A DNA stretch of 50,170 nucleotides. Origin: a virus. The notes beneath the pieces are model-generated. The model was not told the origin of the DNA. It did no database searches and saw only the letters and a program-made list of their open reading frames with translations. The stretch is from positions 1 to 50,170 of the IMG/VR virus record IMGVR_UViG_3300032322_002433; one strand, given 5' to 3'. Shown one piece after another: positions 3,215 to 39,192 of this stretch (the first letter of the stretch is position 1; every line of letters starts with the position of its first letter). Made by a program: the position numbers and the translations under genes.

Positions 3215-3679
3215 ATGGACACGTTAATTCATTTAAACTATGCTGTAGATAAAAAAAGATTATTAGAAGAAGCCGAATTATTTCGAAATCAAGCAGTATC
3301 GTACACAGATTCTAGATATCCAGAATTAAAATTAGATAATTGGTTGATCGGTAGAGGAACAACTGAGTACATAGAAAATATCATCCAAGACTTTGAAGTA
3401 AAAGGCAGGCCTAGATTTTATTACCTAAAGCCATATGCAGTAATACCTGAGCACGTAGATAACGGTACACTATGCAGTCTAAATTTTGTCTTAACAGAAA
3501 ATGCAAGTCCAATAATATTTGGTGATAAAGAATATTTTTACGAATCTGTTCTGCTAGATACTACAGTTCCTCATAGGGTAGTTAACAATCAACACGAAAG
3601 AATTATGTTAAAAATTTCCATTTTTGAAGAAAGTTTTGAACAAGTGGCTAATCGAATACAAAAATATATAATATGCTAA
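3215..3679 (+). CDS. 2OG-Fe(II) oxygenase-like protein, small
   Basis: This 154-residue protein has the facial triad pattern H80-x-D82 (IPEHVDNG), distal H120 (TVPHRVVN) and R129 (HERIMLKI), with beta-strand spacing typical of the double-stranded beta-helix. It is near the minimal size for the fold. I choose ATG 3215 rather than 3167, because the earlier start lies inside the terminator. The late promoter core at 3204-3209 would start the RNA on the ATG itself. The next gene overlaps the end by seven bases. The substrate is unknown. Confidence 0.7.
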   Translation: MDTLIHLNYAVDKKRLLEEAELFRNQAVSYTDSRYPELKLDNWLIGRGTTEYIENIIQDFEVKGRPRFYYLKPYAVIPEHVDNGTLCSLNFVLTENASPIIFGDKEYFYESVLLDTTVPHRVVNNQHERIMLKISIFEESFEQVANRIQKYIIC

Positions 3680-4401
3680 TCAACAAAGAAAAAATAATAA
3701 ACGATACAATTCGAGTTTTTAATCAATCTAACAAACAAAAAGAAAAATTTAAAAAAATCAAATCGTACATCTATGAAGATGAATATAAAATTCTGCATAA
3801 AAATTTTTTAACACCGATCAATCTTAAGATTGACTGTGATTTATTCATTAAAGAAATAATACGATTTTCTGAGTGTTTTGAACAATGGGGTTCTCAGCAT
3901 AATCATCTTCCTAGATTCGGGCTAGCTGTCGTTAATCAAGATGGCATTCTAAAGAAAAATGATCCTATAAACGGATCGTTGTATGAATGGAATTTTAAAA
4001 ATCCCAACGACCCTATTATAGAATCTGATTGTGTTATTCCAACTGAAGTTTTAAAAATAGAATCGCTAGCTCCTTTAAAAGTTTTTAATCATCATTGGTG
4101 TAGATCAAATATCTTAAAATGGCACAGCGGATCAGAATTTAAACCTCATATCGACACAGTTATTCCTAGCCCGTGGCTGCGACTCTGGGGCACGACAAAT
4201 CCAGAAAGTTTAGACCTAAGATATGACAACGGATCTGGCACCCTCGTGAAATTTAATAATATAGAGCCGGGCAGAATTTATCTTATAGACACAAGCATTG
4301 TTCATGATGCTCGCTCTTTTAGTGATGATGTTTATCAATTTTTTCTTAGCGTTCTTCCTTCTTCTATAAATATCCTAAAGGATTTATCATGCCCGCATTA
4401 A
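3673..4401 (+). CDS. aspartyl-hydroxylase-like 2OG oxygenase, divergent
   Basis: In this 242-residue protein the last 100 residues carry a likely Fe(II) site: H159-x-D161 in FKPHIDT, then strands WLRLWGT and GTLVKF, then GRIYLIDTSIVHDA with H211. The Arg expected about ten residues after the distal His is not obvious (VYQFFLSV), so 2-oxoglutarate binding may differ or be lost. The N-terminal 100 residues are Lys-rich and unassigned. The gene overlaps both neighbours and is translationally coupled to the methyltransferase downstream. Confidence 0.6.
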   Translation: MLINKEKIINDTIRVFNQSNKQKEKFKKIKSYIYEDEYKILHKNFLTPINLKIDCDLFIKEIIRFSECFEQWGSQHNHLPRFGLAVVNQDGILKKNDPINGSLYEWNFKNPNDPIIESDCVIPTEVLKIESLAPLKVFNHHWCRSNILKWHSGSEFKPHIDTVIPSPWLRLWGTTNPESLDLRYDNGSGTLVKFNNIEPGRIYLIDTSIVHDARSFSDDVYQFFLSVLPSSINILKDLSCPH

Positions 4402-5156
4402 CCGATTTTACAGAAGATTGGAATAAGTATTCTCTAAAAATAGATACAGACAGAGGAGTGTTAACTTTAAAATGGAACGATGCTAATAATTTAGCACTGT
4501 GGTCTAACATTCAGGCAGGTCTTTATCTACAAGATAAGAATTCTCTGCAAACGTTCTACGAACATTTTCCCAGATGGTATCAATTATTTTGGAACGCTAG
4601 ATATAAACAAGGTCTTTTTAATTTACCAAACGACTCTGTCATTGTTGACATAGGTTCGGGAGTAGCTGTAATTGATCTATTATTAGCCTTGTATCTCCCT
4701 CAGAGTAAATTTTATCTTATAGACAAGCAAGGTTTTAATTTTAGAAAAGGCGTGTATTACGACAAAGAGTACCCCGAATACAATTCATGGGAGCCGGTTA
4801 AAGATTGCATCAATGCAACAGGTCTAGATCCTTCAAGATTTGTAATGCAATCGCCGGAAGAAAAATTTCCCGAAAATGTAGATTGTATAACTTCATATCT
4901 TTCCTGGGGCTGGCACTACCCAAAAGAAACATATTGGGAACAAGTCATGGCCAATCTTAAAATTGGCGGAAAGTTAATAATGGATGTACGTACTTTACCT
5001 GGTAGAGATGTAGTTGCTGAAATTTCAGAAGATATGAAATCAGAGCCTGTGGCTCATTGGTTCGATATAAAATTGCCAGAACACATCGACAATCTTCCTG
5101 CTCCCGAGAAAGGGATACCAGTCGGAGGAAGATTTATGTGGACCAGGAATGGATAA
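4389..5156 (+). CDS. SAM-dependent methyltransferase, first of a tandem pair
   Basis: This 255-residue class I methyltransferase has motif I VDIGSG at 86-91, a second strand YLIDKQ with the acidic residue for the ribose, a DCITSYLSW motif IV-like stretch, and GGKLIMDVR as the post-motif strand. It begins with an approximately 75-residue domain containing FPRWYQLFW. It is clearly homologous to the next gene through its full length, so the pair arose by duplication. The substrate could be a sugar or a small molecule, judging by its place among oxygenases and radical SAM genes; this is inference. Confidence 0.85.
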   Translation: MPALTDFTEDWNKYSLKIDTDRGVLTLKWNDANNLALWSNIQAGLYLQDKNSLQTFYEHFPRWYQLFWNARYKQGLFNLPNDSVIVDIGSGVAVIDLLLALYLPQSKFYLIDKQGFNFRKGVYYDKEYPEYNSWEPVKDCINATGLDPSRFVMQSPEEKFPENVDCITSYLSWGWHYPKETYWEQVMANLKIGGKLIMDVRTLPGRDVVAEISEDMKSEPVAHWFDIKLPEHIDNLPAPEKGIPVGGRFMWTRNG

Positions 5157-5904
5157 GTTCTCCGACAATTGGAACTTTTACGAATTAACGATCAATTCGA
5201 ATAAGGGTCCCTTAGATTTAAAATGGACTGATGTGGAAGAACTTGCAAAATATACCACCCTTCAATCCGGACTTTTTGGGCAAAATCGTCCTTTTTCTAA
5301 ACAAGTTTTCTTCGAAGTATTTCCTAAATTTTATCAAAATCTTTGGTCCTTAACAGAATCATTGGGAGGTTTTGACTTGCCCGATTCTGCTGTAATAGTT
5401 GACATAGGTTCTGGTATCGGAATTATGGATTTGTTATTAGCAAAATTTTTAAAAGACCCGAAAATATTTCTAGTTGACAGGCAAGAATTAAATAACAAAC
5501 CAGGTGTATATTTTTCAGAAAATTATTTTTTCTACAATTCTTGGATGCCAACAATTGACTGTCTGGAGTCAACTCCGGGAATTAAAGAAAAAATAACTAT
5601 GATAGATCCTCAGGACAAATGGCCTGAAGAAGTCGACTGTATTACATCTTATTTTTCTTGGTGTATGCACTATCCTAAAGATGTTTATTGGGATAGAATT
5701 AAACAGTGTCTGAAGCCGAACGGAAAACTGATAGTCGATATTAGAAAACTTAAAGATAAAAATATCGTAGAAGAAATCAGCGACGAGTTTAAATCGAATC
5801 CTAAAATGCATAGATACGAAAATACTGTGGTAAAATGGATAGACGATAATCAAGATGACACATTGGGTTATAGATGCGTCTGGACAAGGAAAGACAATGT
5901 ATAA
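5149..5904 (+). CDS. SAM-dependent methyltransferase, second of a tandem pair
   Basis: The 251-residue product matches its upstream neighbour in order and spacing: N-terminal FPKFYQNLW, motif I VDIGSG at 84-89, LVDRQ, DCITSYFSWCMHYPKDVYW and GKLIVDIRK. The copies differ at many positions, so the duplication is old and both appear intact. It overlaps the previous gene by eight bases and the next oxygenase gene by eight bases, pointing to one coupled message. Confidence 0.85.
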   Translation: MDKFSDNWNFYELTINSNKGPLDLKWTDVEELAKYTTLQSGLFGQNRPFSKQVFFEVFPKFYQNLWSLTESLGGFDLPDSAVIVDIGSGIGIMDLLLAKFLKDPKIFLVDRQELNNKPGVYFSENYFFYNSWMPTIDCLESTPGIKEKITMIDPQDKWPEEVDCITSYFSWCMHYPKDVYWDRIKQCLKPNGKLIVDIRKLKDKNIVEEISDEFKSNPKMHRYENTVVKWIDDNQDDTLGYRCVWTRKDNV

Positions 5905-6529
5905 AAAAGGTATTGTTAGATCAATATTTCCTACACTAATTTACGAAGCTCAGTATGACAACTTCGAAAATGTACAGCAATCTTTAATAGACAGAGCATT
6001 AGCTAGTTTTGAAAATAACCTAGCTCCGGGAAATGATTACTTTGATAAAGATGGCAACGACATCTTTAAAAGAACTTTGCCTAATCTTCACCTACGACCA
6101 GAATTTAAAGATGTATTAGAAGTATTAGATTTTCACGGAAAAGCATATTGGGATTCTCTTGATCTTACTACACAAGAGGAACCTTACGTTCTTCAATTAT
6201 GGGCTAACGATGTACCACCCGGAGGATTCACCGCTTCTCATAATCATACTCCTATTGCAATAGGAGGAGTTATGTATCTCGATGCTGATCCATTAAAAGG
6301 AAATATACATCTAGAAGATCCAACACATATGGTAAAGGAAAGACTTCCTTACAACTGGCAAAAAAAACCTTATGTTTATACGGAAGAAATTCAAGTAGAA
6401 GCAGGTAAAATTGTAATGTTTCCTGGTTATCTTATGCATCACGTTAGATCAAATCGATCAACAACTAATAGGATAGTTTTAGGATTTAATTATGGATTAT
6501 CCTGGACATATAAATCTAAACCATATTAA
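5897..6529 (+). CDS. 2OG-Fe(II) oxygenase (2OG-FeII_Oxy_5 type)
   Basis: The 210-residue protein begins at ATG 5897, inside the end of the methyltransferase gene; the longer frame from 5855 has no support. It shows the family pattern well: FPTLIYEA at the N-terminus, H115-x-H117 in FTASHNH, GGVMYLDA, GNIHLEDP, then GKIVMFPGYLMHHVRSN with H181/H182, and R192 in NRIVLGFN. It is one of four close relatives in the island (with the genes at 6539, 10149 and 12421). These enzymes are common in marine T4-like phages, but their substrates are mostly unknown. Confidence 0.88.
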   Translation: MYKKGIVRSIFPTLIYEAQYDNFENVQQSLIDRALASFENNLAPGNDYFDKDGNDIFKRTLPNLHLRPEFKDVLEVLDFHGKAYWDSLDLTTQEEPYVLQLWANDVPPGGFTASHNHTPIAIGGVMYLDADPLKGNIHLEDPTHMVKERLPYNWQKKPYVYTEEIQVEAGKIVMFPGYLMHHVRSNRSTTNRIVLGFNYGLSWTYKSKPY

Positions 6530-6538
6530 GGAACTAAA

Positions 6539-7219
6539 ATGATTAATTATCAACAAATTTTCCCTCATACTATTTGTATAGCAGATTATCCAGATTTCGG
6601 AGATATACAAGAATCTATTAAATTAGAAATAAAAAAATATCTAGGAATAGATATTCAGATGGATTCTGATAAAGTTGACATTTATGATAGAGTACATGAT
6701 CATCCCTGCAGAGGAGGCGAGTACGGAATTATGTACGATGTAATTAATTTCGACAATCCCGACAATCCTGACAATATTAAAAATCCAGATCTAAGAAAAT
6801 TGCACGATTGGATGAACGAACAATGTAAAATGTATTGGGAAGAATTGGGTTATAATAAACTCTTACACCCATATATATTACAGATGTGGGGACTATATCA
6901 AGGACCAGGTGGCTTTACAGCTTCACACAATCATGCCGGAATACCTATATCCGCTGCATTTTATGTAGATGCTGAAGAAAAAGGAAATCTAGTGCTCGAA
7001 GATCCTTCAGAGTTAGTGCTGTCTAGAGCGCCTTATAATAAAGTAAAAGGCACACCGAAAAGATTTCATCACGAAGTTGAAGTAAAAAATGGTAGATTGG
7101 TTATGTTTCCAGGTTGGATGAAACACTTTAGTAGAGAAAACACTTCTAAAGAAGATAGAATATTAATGGCAATAAACTACGGATGTTTTGGCCGGGTCTA
7201 TTATACAGATATGGGTTAA
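6539..7219 (+). CDS. 2OG-Fe(II) oxygenase (2OG-FeII_Oxy_5 type)
   Basis: This 226-residue paralogue of the preceding gene has the metal triad H130, H132 and H196 (FTASHNH; PGWMKHFSREN) and the 2-oxoglutarate Arg at R207 (EDRILMAINYG). An acidic insert (about 70-85, FDNPDNPDNIKNPD) is not in the neighbour. It has a good ribosome binding site (AAGGA at 6529-6533). The stop codon lies in GTTAAC and shares TTAA with the stop of the opposing gene, so the two convergent genes overlap by four bases and no terminator separates them. Confidence 0.88.
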   Translation: MINYQQIFPHTICIADYPDFGDIQESIKLEIKKYLGIDIQMDSDKVDIYDRVHDHPCRGGEYGIMYDVINFDNPDNPDNIKNPDLRKLHDWMNEQCKMYWEELGYNKLLHPYILQMWGLYQGPGGFTASHNHAGIPISAAFYVDAEEKGNLVLEDPSELVLSRAPYNKVKGTPKRFHHEVEVKNGRLVMFPGWMKHFSRENTSKEDRILMAINYGCFGRVYYTDMG

Positions 7220-7452
7220 CATAGTTCAGGAGCGACAGTGCTAGGATTAGCAGAAATTCTGTCAAACAAAGAAAAATCCATTCTTAATTTTTCTTCATGG
7301 TCATAAATTCTTATTGTATACCTATCTTTCAAATTGATCAATTTGAGAACTAGTTCAAGTAAGCCCGATTTAGGAGAAACCAAAGTATGTATTTCTTTAC
7401 CGTTCTCAGATATCTTAATTTTGTAAAAAAAATGATTTAGATCGTTGTCCAT
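7216..7452 (-). CDS. 78-residue protein of unknown function
   Basis: I place the start at the ATG 7452, inside the last codons of the upstream gene, so the two would be coupled; an in-frame start at 7476 also exists. The protein is small and mixed charge, with a beta-like N-terminus (HFFYKIKISENGKEIHTLV) and a possible helix (LLELVLKLINL). No motif is recognisable. It sits at the 3' end of a late minus-strand unit beside a B12-type radical SAM gene, so a role as an accessory or substrate protein is conceivable but unsupported. Confidence 0.6.
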   Translation of the reverse strand: MDNDLNHFFYKIKISENGKEIHTLVSPKSGLLELVLKLINLKDRYTIRIYDHEEKLRMDFSLFDRISANPSTVAPELC

Positions 7453-8279
7453 TGTGTTCTCGCATAATCTAAACATTGATCGATTCTTTCTTTATCAATG
7501 TGTCCCAATAAACTTAGATAATTTAATGAGTTGTGTAATATCTGATGAGCATTGGATACGATTTCCAATTTGCTATACATCCAAGGCATCTTATCTACAT
7601 CTGACCAAAAATATCCTTGTGGATCTTTGTACATCATAGATGGATCACCTAAATTCAAAGGCAACCCACATTTGTATTTTTCTGCGATTGCAGATGACTC
7701 TTTTAATAGAATTAAAAAATTATCTATATAATCTACAAAGAATTTTTTTGTGTTATCCTTTGTGTCAGTAGTCGCATATTGTGAAATATATTCAACTAGA
7801 TTTTCAATATTTCCTGATACTACTTCTTCCGGAAGGTATACTCCCTCGGAATGTGTAATTCCGTTATCAAATATTGTATCAAGAATGCTTAGGCCATAAG
7901 TACTTCCTGGCGATTGTAGTTCTGAATATTCCCAGATAGACCCATCGAACATTGACAATTCTTCTCTATATTTAGGAATATCAATTCTAAATGTTTTTAG
8001 TTCTTGAGATTTATTATATAATTCTTGATAACAAGGCCAATCATTTTTAAACCAGTCTTTTCTAATTCTTATAATTAATCCGTTTCTTAAATTGTAGTAT
8101 GCAACAAAATCGTCTCTGACGTAAATGTAACCGTTTTCATCTCTAAAAATCCCGAAATCTTTAATATTAGTATTCGTAGGTAAGTTTGAAAAATAAGATT
8201 TCCTATTTTGAGGATCACTCCAAAATTCGAGTTTATTTTTCAACTGTACTTGATATATTGATCTTTGAAAAGCTAGCAT
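7437..8279 (-). CDS. 280-residue protein of unknown function
   Basis: I recognise no family. The protein is soluble, rich in Tyr, Asp and Asn, and has a block LNLGDPSMMYKDPQGYFWSDVDK near residues 204-226. This faintly resembles the catalytic and metal loops of kinase-like small-molecule phosphotransferases, but the canonical HxDxxxxN is missing. A ribosome binding site (GGGGA) and a GATAAATA late core lie upstream. It is followed by the coupled 78-residue gene, and the B12-binding radical SAM gene starts a new unit upstream. It could be an accessory protein of that enzyme. Confidence 0.75.
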   Translation of the reverse strand: MLAFQRSIYQVQLKNKLEFWSDPQNRKSYFSNLPTNTNIKDFGIFRDENGYIYVRDDFVAYYNLRNGLIIRIRKDWFKNDWPCYQELYNKSQELKTFRIDIPKYREELSMFDGSIWEYSELQSPGSTYGLSILDTIFDNGITHSEGVYLPEEVVSGNIENLVEYISQYATTDTKDNTKKFFVDYIDNFLILLKESSAIAEKYKCGLPLNLGDPSMMYKDPQGYFWSDVDKMPWMYSKLEIVSNAHQILHNSLNYLSLLGHIDKERIDQCLDYARTQWTTI

Positions 8280-8295
8280 ATTTGTCCCCGTACAG

Positions 8296-8303
8296 TATTT
8301 ATC
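8296..8303 (-). promoter_or_regulatory. T4-like late promoter core (GATAAATA)
   Basis: Read on the minus strand, this gives GATAAATAC about 16 bases upstream of the ATG at 8279, with GGGGA between them as the ribosome binding site. Confidence 0.55.
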
Positions 8304-8336
8304 TTTTTTGTGTCAACGTTGATTTGTATGAATTTA

Positions 8337-10100
8337 CTAGGATTTCTCTAGTACAAAATTTTGTAAATTTTCCGGTGTAAGCCCGTATTTTGTTGTATGC
8401 TGAAAATTATTCTGTATATCGGGCGGAATATCTAGTGACACCCTGATGTTAAACAATTTGTCTTCATCATTACCAAACAAGTCATTTAAAAAATGACGTC
8501 GAGATCCTACCCAATTTTGAAATCCGTATGCTCGATCTTTAAAGAAAATTTCAATCCTATCTGTTTCAAGAAAATGAACATAACTGTCATTTATAACTTT
8601 ATTTAAAATTACCAAACTATTATCAAAGTAATTTTCTTCATTTCCTAGCCCAGCTTGTCTATGGTCTGATTGTACCCCATTATAATCAGTCAACGCACCG
8701 TATAGGTTAAAAAGAAACACTCCAGTAAACCAATCTTTGTTTGATAGAGTAAAATTTTCCACAACAGCATTGGCCCAATGACTAGAAATAGGTCCTGGAT
8801 GCATATCTACACCATCTGCCACATTTAAATAAACTCTTTTAATCTTCATTTGATATTTTTCTTGATATGCAGGTTCGGCCGCAGGAGAATTTGGTAGTAG
8901 TTCAAATATGTGATGTGTAGGAAACATTCCTAATGAACCGCTTTCTATCATGTTCTTTCTAATGTGAGATAATGTTTGACCAGGCATTCCCCAAATAAAA
9001 TTACACCAAACAGGATTAGTTCTTTCCCCCCAGACTTTCACTTTGCTGTGTTTGTCTAAGATGTTTTTAATTAATGTTTTATGATATTCCCATTCTATTT
9101 CAGGACGATCGATAAGATCTAATACAACAGGATCTAAGTCTTGAAGATCAAATTTTAAGCCTGCGGTAACCTGATAGGTTAACATCTTATCTAATAGAGA
9201 ATAAGAATGTTCTTTCTTTGTCTTAGAAAATTGTGTGCTTATAAAAATAGGTGTATGTTTTTTTGATTGTTTTAAATCACAAATATAGTCTACTATTTCT
9301 GTGTCTTGGGGTGTTAAACCTACATTAGGATTCGTCCAATATATACCAGGAACTCCTATTTTACTGAATAGGTTCAGCTCTTTTTTCCAATTCGGAACCA
9401 ACTCATCTTTACCCCAAATTCTTACCTTATGATGTAGACCTGAACTCCAGTCACAGAAAGAACATAAGAATGGGCAACCTTTTGTTGTTTCCCAGCATAG
9501 AGCATAAAAAACACCTCTGTCTCTCAAGCCCTTTAAAAATTTTGTAATTTCATTTTCAAATTCAATGTATATACTGTATTTTAAAATATCATCTTTTTTA
9601 TTCACCGGCTCGTGTTCGCTAATAAATCCCTGTTTTGAAATCACGTTTAACAGATTAACTTCGTGACCAGCTAAATGATCTAGTAGTCTCGAAAAGGCTA
9701 TCTCAGCTTCTCCGTATATCACCCAATCAATAAAATCATATTTTTTAAAAAATTCTTTATCTCTATGCGCATCTAATTCTGGACCACCGACAATAATTGT
9801 AAGATTAGGGTTTTTCTTTTTAAAGAATTCTGCCATCTCAAAAAATTCTTTTTTATTCCATATATAGACACTAAATGCAACTACATCTATCTCTTCTTCC
9901 AACAACATATTGTATGTTTTTTCTAAGTTGAATTCTTCCGGGCTGACTAAAAAATACGGATCAGTCCATTGATATTCGTCCTTAGAAGCTGAAAATTTTA
10001 CGTGATGAAGCTTCAGCATCCAGTTAATAGGAGACACATAGCAGATTTTCTGAGACCATATGCTAAGACAATTTGAACTGAATATTTTTATTTTTTTCAT
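8337..10100 (-). CDS. B12-binding-type radical SAM protein
   Basis: The 587-residue product combines a cobalamin-binding-like Rossmann region (about 60-150, with IDVVAFSVYIWN, IIVGGPELD and IDWVIYGEAE) with a radical SAM core whose CxxxCxxC cluster motif is C209, C213 and C216 (TTKGCPFLCSFCDW). A C-terminal region of about 200 residues is unassigned. Proteins of this layout do B12-dependent methylations or ring and carbon-skeleton reactions. The classic DxHxxG cobalamin motif is not obvious, so B12 binding is uncertain. It has its own late promoter. Reaction and substrate are unknown. Confidence 0.88.
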   Translation of the reverse strand: MKKIKIFSSNCLSIWSQKICYVSPINWMLKLHHVKFSASKDEYQWTDPYFLVSPEEFNLEKTYNMLLEEEIDVVAFSVYIWNKKEFFEMAEFFKKKNPNLTIIVGGPELDAHRDKEFFKKYDFIDWVIYGEAEIAFSRLLDHLAGHEVNLLNVISKQGFISEHEPVNKKDDILKYSIYIEFENEITKFLKGLRDRGVFYALCWETTKGCPFLCSFCDWSSGLHHKVRIWGKDELVPNWKKELNLFSKIGVPGIYWTNPNVGLTPQDTEIVDYICDLKQSKKHTPIFISTQFSKTKKEHSYSLLDKMLTYQVTAGLKFDLQDLDPVVLDLIDRPEIEWEYHKTLIKNILDKHSKVKVWGERTNPVWCNFIWGMPGQTLSHIRKNMIESGSLGMFPTHHIFELLPNSPAAEPAYQEKYQMKIKRVYLNVADGVDMHPGPISSHWANAVVENFTLSNKDWFTGVFLFNLYGALTDYNGVQSDHRQAGLGNEENYFDNSLVILNKVINDSYVHFLETDRIEIFFKDRAYGFQNWVGSRRHFLNDLFGNDEDKLFNIRVSLDIPPDIQNNFQHTTKYGLTPENLQNFVLEKS

Positions 10101-10125
10101 ATGAAGTTAACCAAAGATAGCTTAA

Positions 10126-10133: not shown

Positions 10134-10148
10134 AGTATGATTTTTATC

Positions 10149-11269: not shown

Positions 11270-11270
11270 A

Positions 11271-11765: not shown

Positions 11766-11786
11766 GATCTGTCTCTCTATGCATAT

Positions 11787-16870: not shown

Positions 16871-18802
16871 ATGCCTTTACAAATTCGCAGAGGAACCACA
16901 GCGGAAAGAACGTCAATTAGGCCCATCATAGGCGAATTGATCTATGATACTACATTAAAACAAGTTTATGTCGGTGACAGCACAGACGGGGGAATCACCG
17001 GCACGCTCGGTGGAACCGCTGTTACAACTTTCGGAACAGAAGATGCTCAAGATGCAGTAGCCAGTGTTCTATCATCCGGAACACATACCGGTATATCATT
17101 CGTTTACGATGATGCTGCCAATAAAATTTCAGCCACAGTTGGAGGTGGTGTAGTTGTTTTAGATATCAAAGGTTCAGTATTCACAGATGATACTAGCACA
17201 GTGTTAGTAGATGGTGTCTTAGGAGCAATTAATCTCGATAATACCGTTAGAAGTAATGTAATTCCTTATGTAGATTCTACCTATGATTTAGGCAGCGCCT
17301 CTAAAAGATTCAAAGATTTATATTTGAGCGGATCTAGCCTATATGTAGGCAATGCTGTTATTACTGCTACAGGATCTGCAATTAATCTTCCTGCTGGGTC
17401 GACAGTAGGCGGAGTGTCAATCGGAGCAGGATCGGGTCTAGGAGATGGTGTAGTTTCTGGCAGTAATTACAATATCAATATTGTAGCAGATGATAGCACG
17501 GTGATGGTGAATTCAAGTACAGGTTTGATTACAGCTCCTGATGGTTTTATCGGTAATGTGATAGGAAATTTAAAAGGTGATGTTAGGGCAACAAACAGTG
17601 CAGTGGTGTTAGATTCCGGAACTAACGGTACCGATGCTGTATTTACAGGGTCAGTAACAGGTAATGTCACAGGTAATGTCACAGGTAATGTCACAGGTGA
17701 TGTCACAGGTAATGTCACTGGTAATGTCACAGGTAATGTCACAGGCGATTTAAAAGGATCAGTATTTGCTGATGATAGCACTGTATTAGTCGATGGTCCT
17801 GCTGGAGTGTTACGAGGTCAACTAATTGGTTCAGTGGCCGGTAATGTCACTGGAACAATAACTACTGATTCTATAATTAAGTCAGGTACCACTGGAGTTG
17901 GTACTATCGGTCAGTTCGCAAATAAGTGGGGTATTGTCTACTCCACCACATTTGCCGGAGACTTAACAGGTAATGTCACTGGTAATGTCACTGGTAATGT
18001 CACTGGTAATGTCACTGGTAATGTCGCTGGTAATGTCACTGGTAATGTCACTGGTGATGTGATAGGAAATTCTACAGGATTTCATTTAGGTGACGTGAGA
18101 GGTTCTGTGGTCGCAGACGACTCTACTATGTTGGTAGATGGCGTTTCTGGTAGAATTGTAGGACCTGTGACTGGAAATTCCATTACTTCTTCCGGTGCTA
18201 CCGTTCTTAACACTACATCAAAGACTGCTACATTAGCACAGATAAATTTAGAGGGCACCGGTCTGCTATTTGGTACCACAATGACTGTGTTAACGTCATT
18301 GAATAATTTTCTTACAGAATCATATAGTGCTGGCGGTGATCCTTTTGTTAATATCTATAGCGGTCATGGATCTGCAGCAGGCACAGGCGAAGTATCACTA
18401 ACACGAAGCAGAGGTACTTTGATATCTCCTTCCGCTGTTCAAAACAACGACGAATTAGGACATTTTGTCTTTACCGGTCACGACGGATCTAACTTTTCAT
18501 CATCTAGTAGAATTATATGTTATGTAGACGGTGCAGTAAGCACAGCTACTATACCGTCGAGAATTGCGTTCAGCGTCACTAACAGCACAGGAACAGAAGC
18601 TACTAAACTAACTATTAAGAGTTCGGCAGTAGAATTTGCAGTACCTCCTAAACTTCCAGTAGTTGCAAATGACACAGCTCGTACAGCGTTAGTGGCATCT
18701 CCGTCTGCAGGAATGTTAATCTTTATGCAGAGCGGAACAGCTCCAGCAGCCACAAATGTAGTTCAGGTGTATGACGGCAGTAACTGGGTTAATTTACATT
18801 AA
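16871..18802 (+). CDS. tail-fibre-like structural protein with GNVT repeats
   Basis: The 643-residue protein begins with LQIRRGTTAERTSIRPIIGELIYDT and VYVGDSTDGG, a domain found at the N-terminus of many phage fibre and tropism proteins. The middle has Gly/Thr/Val-rich repeats: two GNVT arrays (about 263-291 and 366-396), and the motif KGSVFADDSTVLVDG several times. The end is GMLIFMQSGTAPAATNVVQVYDGSNWVNLH, typical of phage fibre C-termini. It probably forms a trimeric elongated fibre or a decoration protein. It lies between two sets of radical SAM genes, unusual for a structural gene, and its end overlaps the convergent radical SAM gene by 14 bases. Confidence 0.85.
   Translation: MPLQIRRGTTAERTSIRPIIGELIYDTTLKQVYVGDSTDGGITGTLGGTAVTTFGTEDAQDAVASVLSSGTHTGISFVYDDAANKISATVGGGVVVLDIKGSVFTDDTSTVLVDGVLGAINLDNTVRSNVIPYVDSTYDLGSASKRFKDLYLSGSSLYVGNAVITATGSAINLPAGSTVGGVSIGAGSGLGDGVVSGSNYNINIVADDSTVMVNSSTGLITAPDGFIGNVIGNLKGDVRATNSAVVLDSGTNGTDAVFTGSVTGNVTGNVTGNVTGDVTGNVTGNVTGNVTGDLKGSVFADDSTVLVDGPAGVLRGQLIGSVAGNVTGTITTDSIIKSGTTGVGTIGQFANKWGIVYSTTFAGDLTGNVTGNVTGNVTGNVTGNVAGNVTGNVTGDVIGNSTGFHLGDVRGSVVADDSTMLVDGVSGRIVGPVTGNSITSSGATVLNTTSKTATLAQINLEGTGLLFGTTMTVLTSLNNFLTESYSAGGDPFVNIYSGHGSAAGTGEVSLTRSRGTLISPSAVQNNDELGHFVFTGHDGSNFSSSSRIICYVDGAVSTATIPSRIAFSVTNSTGTEATKLTIKSSAVEFAVPPKLPVVANDTARTALVASPSAGMLIFMQSGTAPAATNVVQVYDGSNWVNLH
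17660..17745 (+). repeat. 12-bp tandem array GGTAATGTCACA
   Basis: About seven copies of a 12-bp unit encode Gly-Asn-Val-Thr, with single-base variants that change Asn to Asp. The Thr codon is mostly ACA here. The repeat length keeps the reading frame, so copy-number change would alter fibre length without frameshift. Confidence 0.9.
17969..18060 (+). repeat. 12-bp tandem array GGTAATGTCACT
   Basis: A second array of about seven or eight units encodes the same tetrapeptide, but uses the Thr codon ACT (one unit has GCT, Ala). The separate codon choice shows each array expanded or was homogenised on its own. Confidence 0.9.
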
Positions 18803-19871
18803 ACACTGACATATCTTTAATAAAATAAGGCATGGTTTGTAATAGATCATGCCTTTCTTTACTTTTAGGTATGCATAGACCGCAGCCACAAAGATCGTTA
18901 GGGCATTGTATTATAGGCATTTGTTTGCTTACTAATCTGTCTCGAAGATCTGTTATCACAGACTCCCATTCTGAAGTTTTTCCTATAGAACCTCTGGTAC
19001 TGTCTAGTTTGGCCTGACAGGTTTGATGATGATATATCAATTCATTCTGTTGATCGATATGTAAAAAATACCAATTCACTGCACAACTCCATTCTTTGAA
19101 GTTTCTGTAATTAACTGATTTAGTTATTTCTTCTGTGTCACCATTGCAAACCTTAAAGCTTCTCCCACCGCAACACGGCCTGTGTAACGGCCCGACGTCG
19201 ATATTCCAAAAATCTTTAAGCCAATCTTTTTGTTCTTGAGTATATAGATGTCCCTGACTGAACGGACTGGTGGGATTTTCTCCTATTAATCTAGGAATGA
19301 AATTAACATTATTTTCTTTTAACCAATCACATAGCTCTTTACACTCATCAAAAAAATTAAAATGAAACATAACATTAACTTTCATTTTAATTCCATTGTT
19401 TTTAAATTGTATAATCCTTTCTTTTACCTGTTTTTTGAGTTTAGAATCCGCTTCAGCATGATAACTTATTGTTACGTGATCGTAGTTCTTAATTATTCCA
19501 TCTGCTATCTTAGAAGACATTGCACCATTAGTTGTAACATCTAACCAAAGATTGATATCCTTATCAAGTTTTTCTATTTTTTTAAAATTAACATATTCTG
19601 AAAATTCTAAAAAGTGTGGATTTACAGTTGGCTCGCCTCCTGTAAAACTTAAATGATATTGTTTATTGACTTTGTACTGAGATAGAAGATTGATATATTC
19701 AAAAACAAAATCTGCATTACTTTTCAAACTATCTAAACTTGCATGAGGACTAAAATTGTCGTGCCGGTGGCCGGGGCAATAACTACAATCATAATTACAT
19801 CTACGCCCCATATCCCAGGTTATTACAAATGAATCTTGGTTGACAGGTTTTATTGAAAAGAATTTAGTCAT
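18789..19871 (-). CDS. radical SAM protein with C-terminal Cys-rich domain
   Basis: The 360-residue protein has the core motif C25, C29 and C32 (GRRCNYDCSYCPGH), the GGEPT motif in LSFTGGEPTVNP, and a C-terminal Cys-rich region (RPCCGGRSFKVC, HHQTCQAK, CPNDLCGCGLC) like a twitch or SPASM domain that binds an extra Fe-S cluster. Such enzymes usually modify peptides, or act on sugars and small substrates. It is the last gene of a seven-gene minus-strand operon and overlaps the preceding gene by eight bases; its end overlaps the fibre gene. Confidence 0.88.
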   Translation of the reverse strand: MTKFFSIKPVNQDSFVITWDMGRRCNYDCSYCPGHRHDNFSPHASLDSLKSNADFVFEYINLLSQYKVNKQYHLSFTGGEPTVNPHFLEFSEYVNFKKIEKLDKDINLWLDVTTNGAMSSKIADGIIKNYDHVTISYHAEADSKLKKQVKERIIQFKNNGIKMKVNVMFHFNFFDECKELCDWLKENNVNFIPRLIGENPTSPFSQGHLYTQEQKDWLKDFWNIDVGPLHRPCCGGRSFKVCNGDTEEITKSVNYRNFKEWSCAVNWYFLHIDQQNELIYHHQTCQAKLDSTRGSIGKTSEWESVITDLRDRLVSKQMPIIQCPNDLCGCGLCIPKSKERHDLLQTMPYFIKDMSVFNVN

Positions 19872-20964
19872 TGTTTACTCTAAGTATAAATTGATCTTTT
19901 GGTTTTGAAAATCCAGTCTTTCCACACACCCGAGCACAGGTGTATAATTTTTTCGAAGACCAATATTCTTCCCAGATACGTTGCCATCTATCATCGTTTA
20001 TAATTTCTTTTATAGAATATTTTAAAGCTGACAATCTTTCTATACCACCCAATGCATTTGTTAAATCGTAGTATTGTTCTAAAGTTTTATCATAAAAATT
20101 ATTAACATAAGTCTGTACAATATCTAAATGGGTATTCTTTGGTGAATAATTATAGGGTGCCGAAGCTAGAAAACAGCAAGGAAATACGTTCTTATGAGCA
20201 TCGATGTAGATTTCTTTTGCATCTAAAACATAACAATTTATTTCGCTTTGCTTTAAAATTTTTTCGTAATTAATTATACTATCTGCATTTATTAAAGAAA
20301 CTTTATTATCAGTTGGAGGTTCGAGATAATAAATGGTATCTCCTTTTTCATCGACTACATTAAATCGATCGCTGCCGACGAATCTGGTTGTATTTTTTAC
20401 TGTGAATCTTTTGAATCCTATTTTTTTACTGCGCAGTTCTGCTTCCGATGCTTGATGTTCATTGTGTTTAAATTTAATAAATGCCCAGTCGGCGATTCCG
20501 CCTTCCTCAATGAATGCTCTAGCATTGTTTATAACGTTCTCGTAGGTTGTTCCTATTCTATATATGTGATGAGTATCTTCTAACCCGTCAATGGCAAAGA
20601 CAACTGTATGATTTATAGGTAGGCAATGAAACAATTCCTTCCACCAAGAAGTTGTTCTAGCCCCACCATTTGTATGAATTCTTACTTCAATGTTCGGCGC
20701 ATTATCTTTAATAAATGAACACATACGAAGCAGATCATTGTTCATTATAGGATCACCAAAATTACCACAAAAATACACTAATCGTATCTGTGATAATGTT
20801 TCTGAATCAAATATTTTTTCAAAATCGTCAAATGTCCAATCGGCAATTTTTAAATTTTCATTGGTCATGCCTCCGTGATACTTGCGAGGACACATTGGAC
20901 AAGATGCCTGACATCTATTACTGATTTCTAAATGCACTGTGTTGAGTTCTTTAAATTGAAACAT
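19864..20964 (-). CDS. radical SAM protein with SPASM-like region
   Basis: The 366-residue protein has C18, C22 and C25 (SNRCQASCPMCPRK), then FCGNFGDPIMN in the place of GGEP, and VFAIDGLEDTHHIYRIGTTYE, a block typical of SPASM-type radical SAM proteins. The C-terminal Cys residues (ESCY-like CYVLDAKEIYID, FPCCFLAS, CARVCGK) probably hold one or two auxiliary clusters. The GDP in place of GEP is a usual variant in this subgroup. It overlaps its neighbours by 8 and 14 bases. The substrate is unknown. Confidence 0.86.
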   Translation of the reverse strand: MFQFKELNTVHLEISNRCQASCPMCPRKYHGGMTNENLKIADWTFDDFEKIFDSETLSQIRLVYFCGNFGDPIMNNDLLRMCSFIKDNAPNIEVRIHTNGGARTTSWWKELFHCLPINHTVVFAIDGLEDTHHIYRIGTTYENVINNARAFIEEGGIADWAFIKFKHNEHQASEAELRSKKIGFKRFTVKNTTRFVGSDRFNVVDEKGDTIYYLEPPTDNKVSLINADSIINYEKILKQSEINCYVLDAKEIYIDAHKNVFPCCFLASAPYNYSPKNTHLDIVQTYVNNFYDKTLEQYYDLTNALGGIERLSALKYSIKEIINDDRWQRIWEEYWSSKKLYTCARVCGKTGFSKPKDQFILRVNND

Positions 20965-21550
20965 AGCCTATGATCATGAATCTTTTATATAGAGAAAGAT
21001 CTAATTCTCCAGAATATAATATATAATTTAAACCGCTTTGTTGTTTAAATTCTTCAAGGTTATTAGATATTCTTACGTGTTCAGCAATATTGTAATTATT
21101 ACTTTGTAACACTATCAATGAACTATCAGGAATGTTCGCCAACCATAAATCGTGTTGCTCTTGGGTGATATGTTCACAACTCGTATTGATAACAACATCA
21201 GCTTGACTTTTTTCGTTACACATATCAGCAGTCACAGCATTAAATCGACCTTGCATCTCTTCTTTTTTATTCATAGTTGCTGCGATAGATTCGCAGGAAG
21301 GATCAATGTCAATACTACGAATAGTAGTAACTGGTATATCGCTTTGAAATAACATACTGGCTAGAACCCCTACCCAGCCGCCGTAGATATCAAAACTGCT
21401 TTCGAAATGTACATAATTTTTAAGATGATCTATCAACCACTCTTTGCTGTTCATCTGGCCTTGCCAAAAAGCATCAAGGGTTCTTTTTGGATCCGAGCTT
21501 TCTCTTATAGCACACATCCAATAGTGTAAATGTTCTGTATCAATTTTCAT
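20951..21550 (-). CDS. SAM-dependent methyltransferase, class I
   Basis: In this 199-residue protein motif I is FDIYGGWVGVLA at 53-64, followed by IRSIDIDPSCESIA with the acidic ribose contact at D81-D83, FNAVTADMCN as motif III, and DVVINTSCEHITQEQHDLW as the motif IV region. It is shorter than the tandem methyltransferases at 4389 and 5149 and not closely related. It is embedded by 11- and 14-base overlaps between two radical SAM genes, which ties its role to theirs. The substrate cannot be read from sequence. Confidence 0.82.
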   Translation of the reverse strand: MKIDTEHLHYWMCAIRESSDPKRTLDAFWQGQMNSKEWLIDHLKNYVHFESSFDIYGGWVGVLASMLFQSDIPVTTIRSIDIDPSCESIAATMNKKEEMQGRFNAVTADMCNEKSQADVVINTSCEHITQEQHDLWLANIPDSSLIVLQSNNYNIAEHVRISNNLEEFKQQSGLNYILYSGELDLSLYKRFMIIGYVSI

Positions 21551-22571
21551 ATATAGGTATAATTTTTTTCGGAGCTTCTTTCCATTTTGTTAATACAGCT
21601 TCTCCGGCACAAGAACATATATTCCTTTCACAAACTACTGGCTGTAATACAGGATTAAATTTCTCTGGAAGATCAGGATCATTGATGTTAAAGTAATTGT
21701 CAATGCCATATAGTTTGGCTTTACAGGTTCCTGTAATCTCTCCTTTTCTATTAATAGAAATCCAATTAATTCCAATAGTACATTTCCAACCGAGAAATTT
21801 GTTTAATTTTCTTAAAATAAAATATTGATCAGTTCTTGTTTTTTCTTTTGTACCGTCGTCGAAAATTGCCGTGTATGTAGGCAACATAGCAAATTCGATA
21901 AAATATTTTATAATATGCTTCAACGAGGGTAGTCGTTTACGAGTAGTTTTTAAGTATTTTAATTGTTCTTCATCATAATCTACAACACCATCGATGTTTA
22001 TTGGCTTAGCCATTACCGTAAACTTTTTCTTCGTTGAAGTGAGTTTATCAATCATTGACCGACATTTGTCCCAAGCATCACGATCCATTAATACCGTTGT
22101 GATTACCAAAACATTTTTATCTAATAAAATTTCAGCTACTTGTTGAACATGGTCCAAGTCTACTCTTTCGTGATGAACACTTATACTAACCATACTAAAA
22201 TAGTGACCATATTCTTTCCACCATCTAACGGTCCTAGAACCGTTAGTTTGTACAGTGATATTGAGTTTTTTCTTTTTTCTATCAAACTTAGTATTTTCAA
22301 TAAGATACTGTGTTAGTTCTCCCAGATGCTTCCACAATGTAGGTTCGCCACCTAGATAATTTAATTGAATGCTATCAATGTCGTTTTCAAAATAAAACTC
22401 TATTATCCTGGATAAATTTTTCTTCACTATGTTTAGTTCTGGCCAAGGAGAGTCTCCGTCATTACATCCTGGAAAACAATACCAACATTTGTAATTACAA
22501 ATATTGCTGAGCTCGTACTGAATTTTTAAAGTCTTTGATCCGCTGTTTTTTATTTCTATTAGCTGTTTCAT
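21540..22571 (-). CDS. radical SAM protein
   Basis: The 343-residue protein has the cluster motif C25, C29 and C32 (SNICNYKCWYCFPGC), YLGGEPTLW as the GGE motif and VSISVHHERVDLDH as a conserved barrel block. The C-terminus holds WKCTIGINW, GTCKAKLYG and CERNICSC, which may bind an auxiliary cluster. It shows the same general order as the proteins at 18789 and 24563, and these probably descend from one ancestor by duplication. The gene overlaps the next by 11 bases and the previous by four. Confidence 0.87.
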   Translation of the reverse strand: MKQLIEIKNSGSKTLKIQYELSNICNYKCWYCFPGCNDGDSPWPELNIVKKNLSRIIEFYFENDIDSIQLNYLGGEPTLWKHLGELTQYLIENTKFDRKKKKLNITVQTNGSRTVRWWKEYGHYFSMVSISVHHERVDLDHVQQVAEILLDKNVLVITTVLMDRDAWDKCRSMIDKLTSTKKKFTVMAKPINIDGVVDYDEEQLKYLKTTRKRLPSLKHIIKYFIEFAMLPTYTAIFDDGTKEKTRTDQYFILRKLNKFLGWKCTIGINWISINRKGEITGTCKAKLYGIDNYFNINDPDLPEKFNPVLQPVVCERNICSCAGEAVLTKWKEAPKKIIPIYEN

Positions 22572-23959
22572 AGCAAATGACCCAATTCTGGAAAAATTCT
22601 TTTAGCGTCTGTATTACGAATCGAGTCTAAATTTTTAACATATTCTTTAAAGTCTGGAACTAGATGACTATGATCTTCTGCTTCTACAAACTTTAGAATA
22701 CTTTCCCAACGATTCCATCCATTAGGGTTATGTTTCCAGAAGTCATCATCCTGGCGATAGTTATCCCATAACCACTGTTTAAATTCTATAAAATCTTTTC
22801 GTAATTGTTCTTTATCGGCTTTAGGGAGAATACGTGCAGAGAGAAAAGTAGGAATATACAACATATGCATATTCAGTATCCCACCTCCTGCTTCAATATC
22901 AAACACTTCGAATAAATTTATCTTCTTAAATTTTTTCAATATCTTCCATTTAGCAAAATCTATAATATGTTTGATATTGAATATTTGAACTGCACAGGCA
23001 ATACCTACTTTGATATTATCTGGAGTATTATCTAATTTCATTAGAGCAGATTCGGTTTCCTGCCAACTTACCGGATATCTAATATAATGATTTCGATCTT
23101 CAAGAGCATCTATGCTAAATGCGAATCTAACTTCTTTGAATTTTGACCAAATGTTAATAATATTATCATCTACTAACACGCCGTTTGAATTGTATCGAAC
23201 TGTGATATTGTCGGCATATCCTCGACGAATGATCTCTTCTAAAAAATTCTTGTGTTCTTTAATCATTAAAGGTTCGCCACCTGCAAAATACAGTTGACGA
23301 ATGTTAGGAATTTGATCGAATATTTCTTTCCATAGTTCTGGTTTTTCGTACCAATAATTGTCAAACGAATTCTTATCCCAAGACATCTGATGCAAAACGA
23401 TCTTACTCTCTGTAGATTTTATCAATTGATCGTGATCTTGTACCCATCTACTACTGTCGTGTGGACTGCACATAACGCACTTTAAATTACAAGTGTGACC
23501 TAATCGTAGATCTAGGTATCTGATTATAGGCGGAACCTCTCCATCCCGGGTTGTTTCTTTTACTAATTGATCTATTTCTAATTTTTCTTCACTCCAATAA
23601 TATGTTTCCCAAATCCTTTTGCTGACAATACCTTTAGATTCTTCTTCGAAGCATTTAAAACAGCTCGATGGAATATTACCATCCAGCATGGTAGTTCTAA
23701 CTGTTCGCATGTACTGGTTGTTCCATGCACTCTGCAGAGTCTCTTTACCAAAGTTTGCAGCAATTCCATCTTCTTTCTTTACTAGGCCTGCATCCATGAT
23801 ACCGTTAGTGGCCTGACTGGCATTAGATCCACAGCACAATCTTGCATCGCCATTAGGACGAGTAGCTACGTGAATCCACGGAAGGACGCAGAAAGTCTTA
23901 GTGCCTGTTTTCTGTTCTACAATTTCTATAAACTTTTTAACTTTTTCAGACACGACCAA
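22568..23959 (-). CDS. twitch-domain radical SAM protein
   Basis: The 463-residue product has an N-terminal Cys-containing block (FCVLPWIHVATRPNGDARLCC, residues 23-43) and IPSSCFKCFEEE (96-107), followed by the radical SAM core C157, C161 and C164 (LGHTCNLKCVMCSPHDSS) and YFAGGEPLMIKEH. This N-terminal arrangement is what annotation pipelines call twitch-domain radical SAM proteins, common in marine phages. It is the longest member of the minus-strand operon. Function is unknown; the extra Cys residues suggest auxiliary Fe-S clusters. Confidence 0.88.
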   Translation of the reverse strand: MVVSEKVKKFIEIVEQKTGTKTFCVLPWIHVATRPNGDARLCCGSNASQATNGIMDAGLVKKEDGIAANFGKETLQSAWNNQYMRTVRTTMLDGNIPSSCFKCFEEESKGIVSKRIWETYYWSEEKLEIDQLVKETTRDGEVPPIIRYLDLRLGHTCNLKCVMCSPHDSSRWVQDHDQLIKSTESKIVLHQMSWDKNSFDNYWYEKPELWKEIFDQIPNIRQLYFAGGEPLMIKEHKNFLEEIIRRGYADNITVRYNSNGVLVDDNIINIWSKFKEVRFAFSIDALEDRNHYIRYPVSWQETESALMKLDNTPDNIKVGIACAVQIFNIKHIIDFAKWKILKKFKKINLFEVFDIEAGGGILNMHMLYIPTFLSARILPKADKEQLRKDFIEFKQWLWDNYRQDDDFWKHNPNGWNRWESILKFVEAEDHSHLVPDFKEYVKNLDSIRNTDAKRIFPELGHLL

Positions 23960-24566
23960 ATCCCCATTGTCTTTCTTCGCACCACCAACATTGGCCGCAG
24001 TGGTCGTAGTACTCTAATTTTCCTGCTTGTTCGCAACTACGTGTTACAGGAAACAGGGCTTCCATTAAATTTAATTGTTTGTAAATATCTGCAATTGTTT
24101 TTTTATCTTTGTTTACAAAAGGTCTTCTTAAGAATCCGTTGTGATCAACTTCATTTTTGATCACAGTAGGATCTCGTTCCTCGGTACTAGGAGAAGCAAA
24201 TACTACATCGCTAGGGGGGTTAGCAGTTACTCCAAAGAACACACAACTGATTGTTTTAGACTTTAGATATTCTCGTTGGGTGTCAAACAAACTGCTTTCA
24301 GTTTGATCTTCTGAATAATAAGAATGATGTATTACGTTGATGTTATCAGTTAATTGAATACAACGTTCTATTACTCTAGGAACAACAACAGCATTAGCTC
24401 TGCCTTTTTTATTATTTGAAAGAGTAAAAATATGAATAGGATCTTTAGTATGTTTCATTAAGATGTAGAGAAGGAGAGAACTATCTGTTCCTCCGGAACA
24501 ACTAATACCTACTGGCCCTGTTGGGATTTCGATTACTGTGTTATTTGCCAACTCTATTCTTTTCAT
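23946..24566 (-). CDS. PP-loop ATP pyrophosphatase, QueC-like
   Basis: The 206-residue protein has a PP-loop SGGTDSS near residues 24-30 and a C-terminal zinc-type Cys set C178, C190, C193 and C196 followed by EER and a Phe (HCGQCWWCEERQWGF). This closely parallels QueC, which makes preQ0 from carboxy-deazaguanine. The middle is shorter and divergent. It could be a true 7-cyano-7-deazaguanine synthase or a related adenylating enzyme acting on another carboxylate in the operon. A QueD-like gene lies at 34845, but QueE, FolE and a DNA transglycosylase are not in the window. Confidence 0.78.
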   Translation of the reverse strand: MKRIELANNTVIEIPTGPVGISCSGGTDSSLLLYILMKHTKDPIHIFTLSNNKKGRANAVVVPRVIERCIQLTDNINVIHHSYYSEDQTESSLFDTQREYLKSKTISCVFFGVTANPPSDVVFASPSTEERDPTVIKNEVDHNGFLRRPFVNKDKKTIADIYKQLNLMEALFPVTRSCEQAGKLEYYDHCGQCWWCEERQWGFGRV

Positions 24567-25543
24567 TTATGTTTAGGTATCTTACTGTCAGCAGAACTAA
24601 CACAACTTGGTGTAATACATTTAGCAGGGGCTTTAAACAATTCAAACCCGTCTGTTAAGGTTCCAAGAATAGCATCGTGACAGCTATAAGATCTTTTTAC
24701 TTCATTACTTCTTATAATAACACTTTGGTACCCGGAATTACAATGCCACCCTTTAAACTTATTAAAGTCGAACGCATTAAATCGTTCTGCTTGATCAAAC
24801 AGGTATTCTTGATTATTGTGATCATAGAGAGATATTTGATATATTTCTTCTCCGGCGGCCTGCTGAGGAAACCCCATTTGCATTAGATGAATCATCTCTT
24901 CTGTATATCCTTCTATCACCCGACTGGCTGTAGAATCACTTTGAGGTTTCAGTGTTATATTAATACCTCGTTTGTGTAATCGTTCGCAGCGTTCATAGAG
25001 CTCATAAAATTTTTCTGGCACCATTACTTGATTGATTGTAACGTATACGTTATCATACATAAGCTGAAGACACTTATCACCAAATTCTTGTTCTTTGGCA
25101 AATTCTGAATGATAACTTGCTGTTATACTTCTTCTCTGTAAATTAGAAGTAACGTTTGACCAATTATTCCACCATTTACTACCAGGACTTAGATTAGTAG
25201 TCATATGTATACTTTGATACGGACTTTCTAAATCATTTTCTAAATGCTTTATTAGATCTAATAATTGTTTATAGGCCGTTGGTTCCCCGCCGCTGAAGCT
25301 CCAATGAAATTCCGTAAAGCCATTCTGTCTTGCTTGTCTTTTAATTTCGTCTACTGTATTTTTATAGATGTCTAATGATTGATAATCGATTCTATCCGAT
25401 CTTGCATATGGCCAGCAATATGAACAACTATAATTACAAAATCTTCCTAGTATCCAACTTGTAGAAAATAACGGTCGGGCCAACATTGTTCTTTGACCAA
25501 ATCTGGTTATATTTTGAAATGGTATATTTTGAAAATCGTGCAT
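24563..25543 (-). CDS. radical SAM protein, first gene of minus-strand operon
   Basis: The 326-residue protein has C36, C40 and C43 (GRFCNYSCSYCWPYARSD), FSGGEPTAYK, ITASYHSEFAK as a barrel block and C-terminal Cys residues (WHCNSGYQ, SYSCHDAIL, KCITPSCVSS). The arrangement matches the proteins at 18789 and 21540. It is not QueE, which has a different CxxxxxxxCxxC-type loop. It overlaps the QueC-like gene by four bases, so the two may act on the same substrate. A late-type core lies eight bases from the ATG and there is no ribosome binding site. Confidence 0.87.
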   Translation of the reverse strand: MHDFQNIPFQNITRFGQRTMLARPLFSTSWILGRFCNYSCSYCWPYARSDRIDYQSLDIYKNTVDEIKRQARQNGFTEFHWSFSGGEPTAYKQLLDLIKHLENDLESPYQSIHMTTNLSPGSKWWNNWSNVTSNLQRRSITASYHSEFAKEQEFGDKCLQLMYDNVYVTINQVMVPEKFYELYERCERLHKRGINITLKPQSDSTASRVIEGYTEEMIHLMQMGFPQQAAGEEIYQISLYDHNNQEYLFDQAERFNAFDFNKFKGWHCNSGYQSVIIRSNEVKRSYSCHDAILGTLTDGFELFKAPAKCITPSCVSSADSKIPKHK

Positions 25544-39191: not shown

Positions 39192-39192
39192 A

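Follow-up and report, generated by a model that had tools for sequence, protein, structure and literature searches.

A radical SAM-rich modification island with a recurrent four-enzyme core and an anticodon-less tRNA-like RNA in a T4-type phage

The IMG/VR record IMGVR_UViG_3300032322_002433, a linear viral entry of 50,170 bp taken whole and referred to below as the window, carries a 22.4-kb island of ~25 genes, mostly for chemical modification, with a tRNA-like RNA at its right border (Table 1; genes are named by their first coordinate). The record is probably a fragment of a larger genome. We assign the phage to the T4-type myoviruses because a 2,529-aa protein encoded downstream of the island has a T4 gp9/10-like N-terminal domain (PF07880) and a baseplate-wedge match is found among the genes in the same region. 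Since the right-flank gene 29437 has relatives on contigs as long as 399,796 bp, and the island gene 24563, among the matches listed, on contigs as long as 363,943 bp, the lineage is probably a jumbo one.

The flanking genes show that the block is a discrete insertion, since in several relatives (L141-L145) the homologues of 2551 and 25763 are 190-238 bp apart, as compared with 22.6 kb in the window; the 2551 homologue of these relatives is 92% identical to that of the window. The position of the island varies, the same core adjoining 25763 or else 30863/IF-1. The coding share of 3167-25543 is 97.9%, and the two widest spaces between genes measure 217 bp, where convergent genes face each other, and 219 bp, where the tRNA-like RNA lies. 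The nearest relative, L001, matches 24 of the 25 island genes with dN/dS values of 0.00-0.17 for all 24, and the island genes are therefore maintained by purifying selection. No direct repeat of the RNA 3' end of at least 10 bp was found at the left border, so that site-specific integration of the tRNA type lacks support.

Table 1. Features of the island, its borders and the nearby Fe-S genes. Bit scores and E-values are from profile searches; rSAM, radical S-adenosylmethionine enzyme; 2OG, 2-oxoglutarate.
Feature	Coordinates	Strand	Evidence
Whole island	3167..25543		Between gene 2551-3156 and the tRNA-like RNA; empty sites, coding density
2OG-Fe(II) oxygenase-like (Asp_Arg_Hydrox, weak)	3167..3679	+	PF05118 E 0.009, below cut-off; HxD...H by eye
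Putative 2OG oxygenase	3673..4401	+	PHID...VH motif by eye; no Pfam match
Methyltransferase-like	4389..5156	+	Weak GidB match; sister of 5149 by eye
Methyltransferase-like	5149..5904	+	PF13489 E 4.5e-4, below cut-off
2OG-Fe(II) oxygenase	5855..6529	+	PF13759 61.7 bits
2OG-Fe(II) oxygenase	6539..7219	+	PF13759 56.6 bits
Protein without Pfam/PHROG match	7437..8279	-	Homologues in L001, L002, L004, L008
B12-binding rSAM, probable class B methyltransferase	8337..10100	-	PF04055 37.8, PF02310 36.7 bits
2OG-Fe(II) oxygenase	10149..10781	-	PF13759 56.9 bits
Cupin-like	10781..11269	-	No Pfam match; resembles sister 11271 by eye
Cupin-like	11271..11765	-	Cupin_2 E 0.019, below cut-off
Short-chain dehydrogenase-like (SDR)	11787..12356	-	adh_short E 8e-6, slightly below cut-off
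2OG-Fe(II) oxygenase	12421..13050	+	PF13759 64.7 bits
rSAM with HMPTM zinc ribbon, Tes/GDGT-MAS-like	13050..14210	+	PF23545 51.5, PF04055 38.9 bits
Aspartyl/asparaginyl beta-hydroxylase-like oxygenase	14207..14782	+	PF05118 37 bits, above cut-off
B12-binding rSAM	14779..16233	+	PF04055 59.4; PF02310 25.7 bits, below cut-off
GNAT-like by eye	16230..16808	+	No Pfam/PHROG match; conserved in relatives
Tail-fibre-like structural protein	16871..18802	+	Mtd_N 28.4 bits; tail PHROGs
Core-associated rSAM	18789..19871	-	PF04055 41.4 bits; homologues in 59/84 viral loci
Core rSAM, SPASM-like C-terminal cysteines	19864..20964	-	PF04055 32.5 bits; cysteines invariant
Core class I methyltransferase-fold protein	20951..21550	-	Model pLDDT 95.5; no Pfam match
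rSAM	21540..22571	-	PF04055 45.8 bits
Core twitch-domain rSAM	22568..23959	-	NF033640 381 bits, cut-off 170
PP-loop ATPase, QueC-like, optional	23946..24566	-	PF06508 35.4 bits; below NCBIfam QueC cut-off
rSAM of MoaA/anSME type, first gene of core operon	24563..25543	-	PF04055 46.1 bits; alignment, PDB fold matches
tRNA-like RNA without anticodon arm, 110 nt	25610..25719	+	Covariance model 112.6 bits
63-aa basic protein, right-flank backbone gene	25763..25954	+	Identity ~82-100% in most relatives having the gene
IscU Fe-S scaffold	39322..39714	+	TIGR01999 228 bits, cut-off 192
IscA-type Fe-S carrier	39837..40157	+	PF01521 62 bits; TIGR00049 above cut-off

Eight island proteins contain the CxxxCxxC motif and score 32.5-59.4 bits against PF04055, all above the Pfam cut-off of 29.5 bits, and they are exactly the rSAM proteins of the whole record. 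This agrees with an earlier, sequence-only reading of the window, which had counted eight such enzymes at the same positions and two B12-binding regions among them; the B12-binding domain exceeds its cut-off in 8337 and falls below it in 14779. Of the seven island oxygenases in that inventory, five score above Pfam cut-offs and the other two (3167 and 3673), with a weak match or a motif alone, are plausible, whereas an eighth proposed at 737, outside the island, gives a weak PF05118 match (E 0.03, below cut-off). Profile matches back the SDR and the PP-loop protein, and among the three methyltransferases 20951 is upheld by its predicted fold, whose top PDB matches are class I methyltransferases, while 5149 and 4389 have weak Pfam matches only. 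One of the two cupins has a weak match and the other was recognised by eye; the GNAT call for 16230 found no family match. The inventory had overlooked the tRNA-like RNA at the border as well as Fe-S supply genes ~14 kb away.

Comparison with other viral records identifies a core within the island, composed of the rSAM 24563, the methyltransferase 20951, the SPASM-like rSAM 19864 and the twitch rSAM 22568. The core was found in hundreds of viral contigs, some of 230-400 kb, and 24563 has relatives in at least 585 viral stretches. In a set of 84 viral loci, collected almost entirely via 19864, many of them short and with paralogues as some of the best matches, homologues of 20951 are present in 81, of 22568 in 72 and of 24563 in 67; when loci are seeded with 24563 instead, 20951 is present in 73 of 78. 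Gene order across the left half is conserved in ~8 viral loci. The number of rSAM proteins per record is 3-11 in 26 records and reaches 19 in a record of 281,658 bp, and one large relative encodes no rSAM protein. A Pfam scan of 58 chosen proteins, 51 from sister islands and seven from the window, revealed epimerases, UDP-sugar dehydrogenases and aminotransferases (including DegT), along with a fatty-acid desaturase, a SAM decarboxylase, an arginine-deiminase/amidinotransferase-type match and further oxygenases. Against cultured phages, tblastn of 24563 and 20951 gave no match, and searches with 13050 and 14779 gave nothing.

The same core has a cellular counterpart. A genome scan located full-length 24563 homologues with 46-51% identity chiefly in metagenome-assembled genomes (MAGs) of Bdellovibrionota, where 24563 is accompanied by homologues of 19864 and 22568 and often of 20951 (L085, L092, L100, L102, L104, L106). 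This counterpart differs from the island in being chromosomal, in falling outside the viral clade, in often having a glycosyltransferase-like protein, and in the absence of the tRNA-like RNA. On contigs of 200 kb (L100) and 494 kb (L092) the core lies amid chromosomal genes. In a maximum-likelihood tree, in which the bootstrap had not fully settled, all 45 viral sequences of 24563 group together (100/100 support) on a long branch (1.24), a topology that would fit a single old exchange, in either direction, between virus and cell. Five marine MAG contigs with unrelated bacterial assignments (L097, L098, L105, L107, L110) are rich in rSAM genes and group together; they may be mis-binned phage DNA, and the ThyX of L110 is 65% identical to that of the window. 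Two further observations concern the cellular relatives. MAG contigs of Elusimicrobia and other groups (L112-L126) carry runs of distant 24563-like rSAM genes. A widespread group of proteins that share FISYxExNA and VVDGD motifs but have no Pfam match, glycosyltransferase-like by eye, accompanies the rSAM core in both cells and phages (L085:13685-14392 and 42 other loci).

The profile searches, the synteny of the core in viruses and its single viral clade together support the sequence-only reading in its proposal of a modification island belonging to the phage, and show that the neighbourhood is conserved. That reading had named two outcomes as counting against it, namely motifs falling mostly outside the rSAM and 2OG families and unrelated cargo genes with no conserved neighbourhood; we found the motifs mostly inside these families and the neighbourhood conserved.

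The individual rSAM enzymes give several hints about chemistry. The tailoring enzyme 8337 matches the KedN5 family (E 1.5e-38, below cut-off) and has TokK (1.8e-32) and CysS as its nearest solved structures, whereas 14779 is nearest to AprD4 (1.6e-4) and 13050 to GDGT-MAS (5.7e-22); the structural neighbours of all three are small-molecule or lipid enzymes. Together with the weak match of 22568 to cytosylglucuronate decarboxylase, the similarities of 8337 and 14779 to small-molecule enzymes could mean that the island makes a diffusible metabolite acting during infection, such as an antimicrobial, a chain terminator or a cofactor, and a gene of the Trp-halogenase family adjoins the island. No exporter or resistance gene was recognised in the island, however, and the viperin model is far under its cut-off (56 vs 180 bits), so we consider small-molecule or nucleotide chemistry of this kind unlikely, at about one chance in five. 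A viperin itself was rejected on the same model, NF038283, for which the best score is 56.1 bits (21540).

SPASM and twitch rSAM enzymes often act on peptides. Of the island proteins only 22568 has a SPASM match above cut-off, and the fold of 24563 is closest to MoaA and then to anSME and EpeE, with TM scores of only ~0.4-0.5 that therefore permit no inference about its substrate. A ribosomal substrate modified by the island enzymes, for example the structural protein 16871 or another virion protein, would be in line with these fold neighbours, with the beta-hydroxylase-like 14207 and with the location of 16871 in mid-island between two converging gene sets. The middle of 16871 is locally variable (0.07-0.48 identity to L001, most neighbouring genes being 92-100% identical). 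Against a ribosomal substrate, homologues of 16871 occur in just 12 of the 84 core-bearing viral loci, the nearly fully coding island leaves no room for a small precursor gene, and its proteins have no Pfam match to PqqD/RRE (the recognition element of ribosomally synthesized and post-translationally modified peptides, RiPPs), to a protease or to a transporter. Protein or peptide modification is thus improbable, to the same degree as a diffusible metabolite. The RiPP form of the idea was rejected on the missing precursor space and the missing RRE, protease and transporter matches in the island, and the score of 40.7 bits against TIGR03975, a RiPP-subfamily model of B12-rSAM C-methyltransferases, compares with a cut-off of 281.85; a precursor encoded at a distance from the island is possible.

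The optional PP-loop gene 23946 resembles QueC and the gene 34845, outside the island, resembles QueD, and phage CP220 too has a QueD-like gene close to its rSAM cluster. With an rSAM enzyme these proteins could hypermodify nucleic acid by a 7-deazaguanine-type route. We regard this as very unlikely, as all scores are below the equivalog cut-offs (QueC 26.9/150, QueD 36.3/89, QueE 19.8/206 bits), neither FolE, QueE nor a DNA transglycosylase was recognised among the scanned proteins, and most island enzymes would be left unexplained. Thymidine hypermodification was rejected because the thymidylate synthase of the window is ThyX rather than a dUMP hydroxymethylase.

The RNA at the right border reaches 24.4 bits with the Rfam tRNA model, below the gathering score of 29, and is not called by ARAGORN at default settings; as neither ARAGORN nor Rfam gave a tmRNA match, a tmRNA identity was rejected. 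Using the T-loop motif as a search key we collected 38 distinct versions of the RNA, all of which have the encoded ACCA end, the acceptor stem and the T arm. Compensatory changes are present in 5 of the 14 consensus pairs (23 RNA versions), and a variable-arm-like hairpin stays paired across many different stem sequences. In place of the anticodon arm and its seven-nt loop stands a hairpin that differs in length between versions and is in many cases closed by GNRA or UUCG, in others by different loops. Folding of the single sequence was uninformative (z -0.16), and the structure therefore rests on covariation. In all 30 testable cases a -10-like box lies 3-9 nt upstream of the RNA (12% in shuffled sequence), and the RNA is predicted to have its own sigma70-like promoter. 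No convincing TTGACA-type promoter was found for 24563, and the count of the T4 late promoter TATAAATA in the window is at the chance level, so that nothing can be inferred about timing.

With a covariance model the RNA scores >45 bits in the majority of viral loci extending to the site, and it was not detected next to the Bdellovibrionota core. When loci are collected with a piece of the RNA sequence alone, 24563 lies within 400 bp in 77 of the 107 that have sufficient upstream DNA, across two backbone contexts. The RNA also occurs at sites empty of the island, and several records have the core without the RNA; both are present in 23 records, the RNA only in 7, the core only in 8 and neither in 10, giving a Fisher p of 0.03 that comes from related, fragmentary records and is suggestive only. 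The empty sites and these counts reject an obligate partnership of RNA and core. Read conservatively, the RNA belongs to the phage backbone, lies at an insertion hot spot and has its own role, while a functional link to the island enzymes is possible. One such link would make it an aminoacyl carrier or a substrate, charged by a synthetase that ignores the anticodon, with the island enzymes modifying the amino acid or the RNA. The conservation, covariation, promoter and CCA end of the RNA and its closeness to 24563 speak for it, and the discriminator A and the long variable arm suggest LeuRS-like charging; the RNA at empty sites, the core without RNA and its absence beside the Bdellovibrionota core speak against it, and we give it less than one chance in ten. 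Slimmer still is the chance of a dedicated tRNA outside translation, in which case the anticodon-less RNA would act as an aminoacyl carrier or modification substrate for an amino-acid-derived product of the phage rSAM, oxygenase and methyltransferase enzymes; this would be the first viral tRNA-tethered pathway of radical chemistry. Taken by itself the RNA could be of a new kind, and it raises the question of what use a phage has for a tRNA that is unable to decode.

The best joint explanation, to which we give a probability of roughly 40%, is that the accessory core and the tailoring enzymes make a decorated surface structure. The conserved core would build or activate a common scaffold, which the exchangeable B12-rSAMs, 2OG oxygenases, PP-loop protein, SDR and cupins would hydroxylate, methylate and oxidise, the phage IscU and IscA assisting with Fe-S clusters. 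The product, the least certain part of the scheme, may be a glycan or lipid of the host envelope or a group associated with the tail, and with equal uncertainty it may alter receptor recognition or keep out other phages. We favour surface chemistry because the island contains a locally variable tail-fibre-like gene and the phage encodes KdsA, because sister islands have nucleotide-sugar dehydrogenases, epimerases and a DegT aminotransferase, and because similar islands adjoin tail fibres and VrlC in Pelagibacter phage Mosig EXVC030M or occupy the host recognition cluster of pelagimyophages (PMC7029224). In the cellular locus L102 the core adjoins genes that by eye resemble epimerases, asparagine synthases and GT2 glycosyltransferases, which we also count for the surface link. 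Several points weigh against a surface product. The island contains no glycosyltransferase, and the call for 36374, made by eye, has no Pfam match. No rSAM protein meets a substrate-level family, the only assignment being to a broad twitch subfamily. The neighbours of the core in several Bdellovibrionota (L092, L100) have no obvious link to the surface, and the proximity to a tail fibre can be due to hitch-hiking in a variable region.

Outside the island, genes for an Fe-SOD-like protein, IscU and the IscA-type carrier stand in a row at 38634-40157; they may support the Fe-S enzymes of the island, and IscU homologues are close to the core in L018 and L022. KdsA (KDO-8-phosphate synthase) is encoded at 35569-36408 (414 bits, above cut-off) and is directly followed by the glycosyltransferase-like gene at 36374-37162. 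A UvdE UV-damage endonuclease gene is found at 37181-38239 (PF03851 136.7 bits). The phage encodes IF-1 (1343-1561; TIGR00008 89.2 vs 61.15 bits), which is kept beside the island in many relatives, and the flavin-dependent Trp-halogenase family protein at 27861-29363 (phrog_2928, E 2e-98) is present only in some of them.

Among open-licence papers we found no functional study of this RNA or of such islands. The closest description for the RNA is tRNA-Other of Bacillus cereus (PMC3399842), which is also tRNA-like, flanks a genomic island and is unused in translation; the likeness is one of description, and in the phage RNA a capped hairpin replaces the anticodon arm. For the enzymes, the sequence-only reading had pointed to polytheonamide, a proteusin RiPP whose pathway likewise unites B12-rSAM, SPASM-type rSAM, hydroxylase and methyltransferase genes. 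That comparison could not be sustained, because no precursor gene and no RRE/PqqD, protease or transporter match was found in the island, and because TokK/CysS and AprD4 are the closest solved structures for its B12 enzymes.

Its statement that no described phage system has this content proved too strong, and the island is a variant of rSAM-rich phage regions that have been noted since 2010 without a function. The Campylobacter phages CP220 and CPt10 have 11-12 rSAM proteins and an exchangeable cluster of five (PMC2853527), together with a QueD-like gene and glycosyltransferase-like genes. The island shows ~22% identity to one of their rSAM proteins and has no match for 24563 or 20951 there; the glycine amidinotransferase of the Campylobacter clusters was not found in the window, although an amidinotransferase-like gene occurs in sister islands, and no oxygenase or B12 set is described for these clusters. 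Pelagimyophages carry rSAM cassettes within their host recognition cluster (PMC7029224), and in Mosig an island of similar content lies between the tail fibres and VrlC. The cluster of pelagimyophages and cyanomyophages (PMC7029224) and the Mosig island are close parallels, being variable regions with tail fibres in T4-type phages that contain 2OG/Asp_Arg_Hydrox oxygenases, methyltransferases, GNAT proteins, MoaA-like rSAMs and sugar enzymes. The window agrees with them in carrying, within a T4-type genome, an island that is variable and contains a tail-fibre gene, as seen from the Mtd_N gene, the gp9/10 and baseplate matches and the empty sites; it differs in having more rSAM and B12 enzymes. 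The pelagimyophage cluster is located between VrlC and gp14. New are the delimited core and its counterpart in Bdellovibrionota, the breadth of that core, the combination of oxygenases with B12 enzymes, and the anticodon-less RNA. The chromosomal counterpart makes the function of the four-enzyme core testable beyond an uncultured phage.

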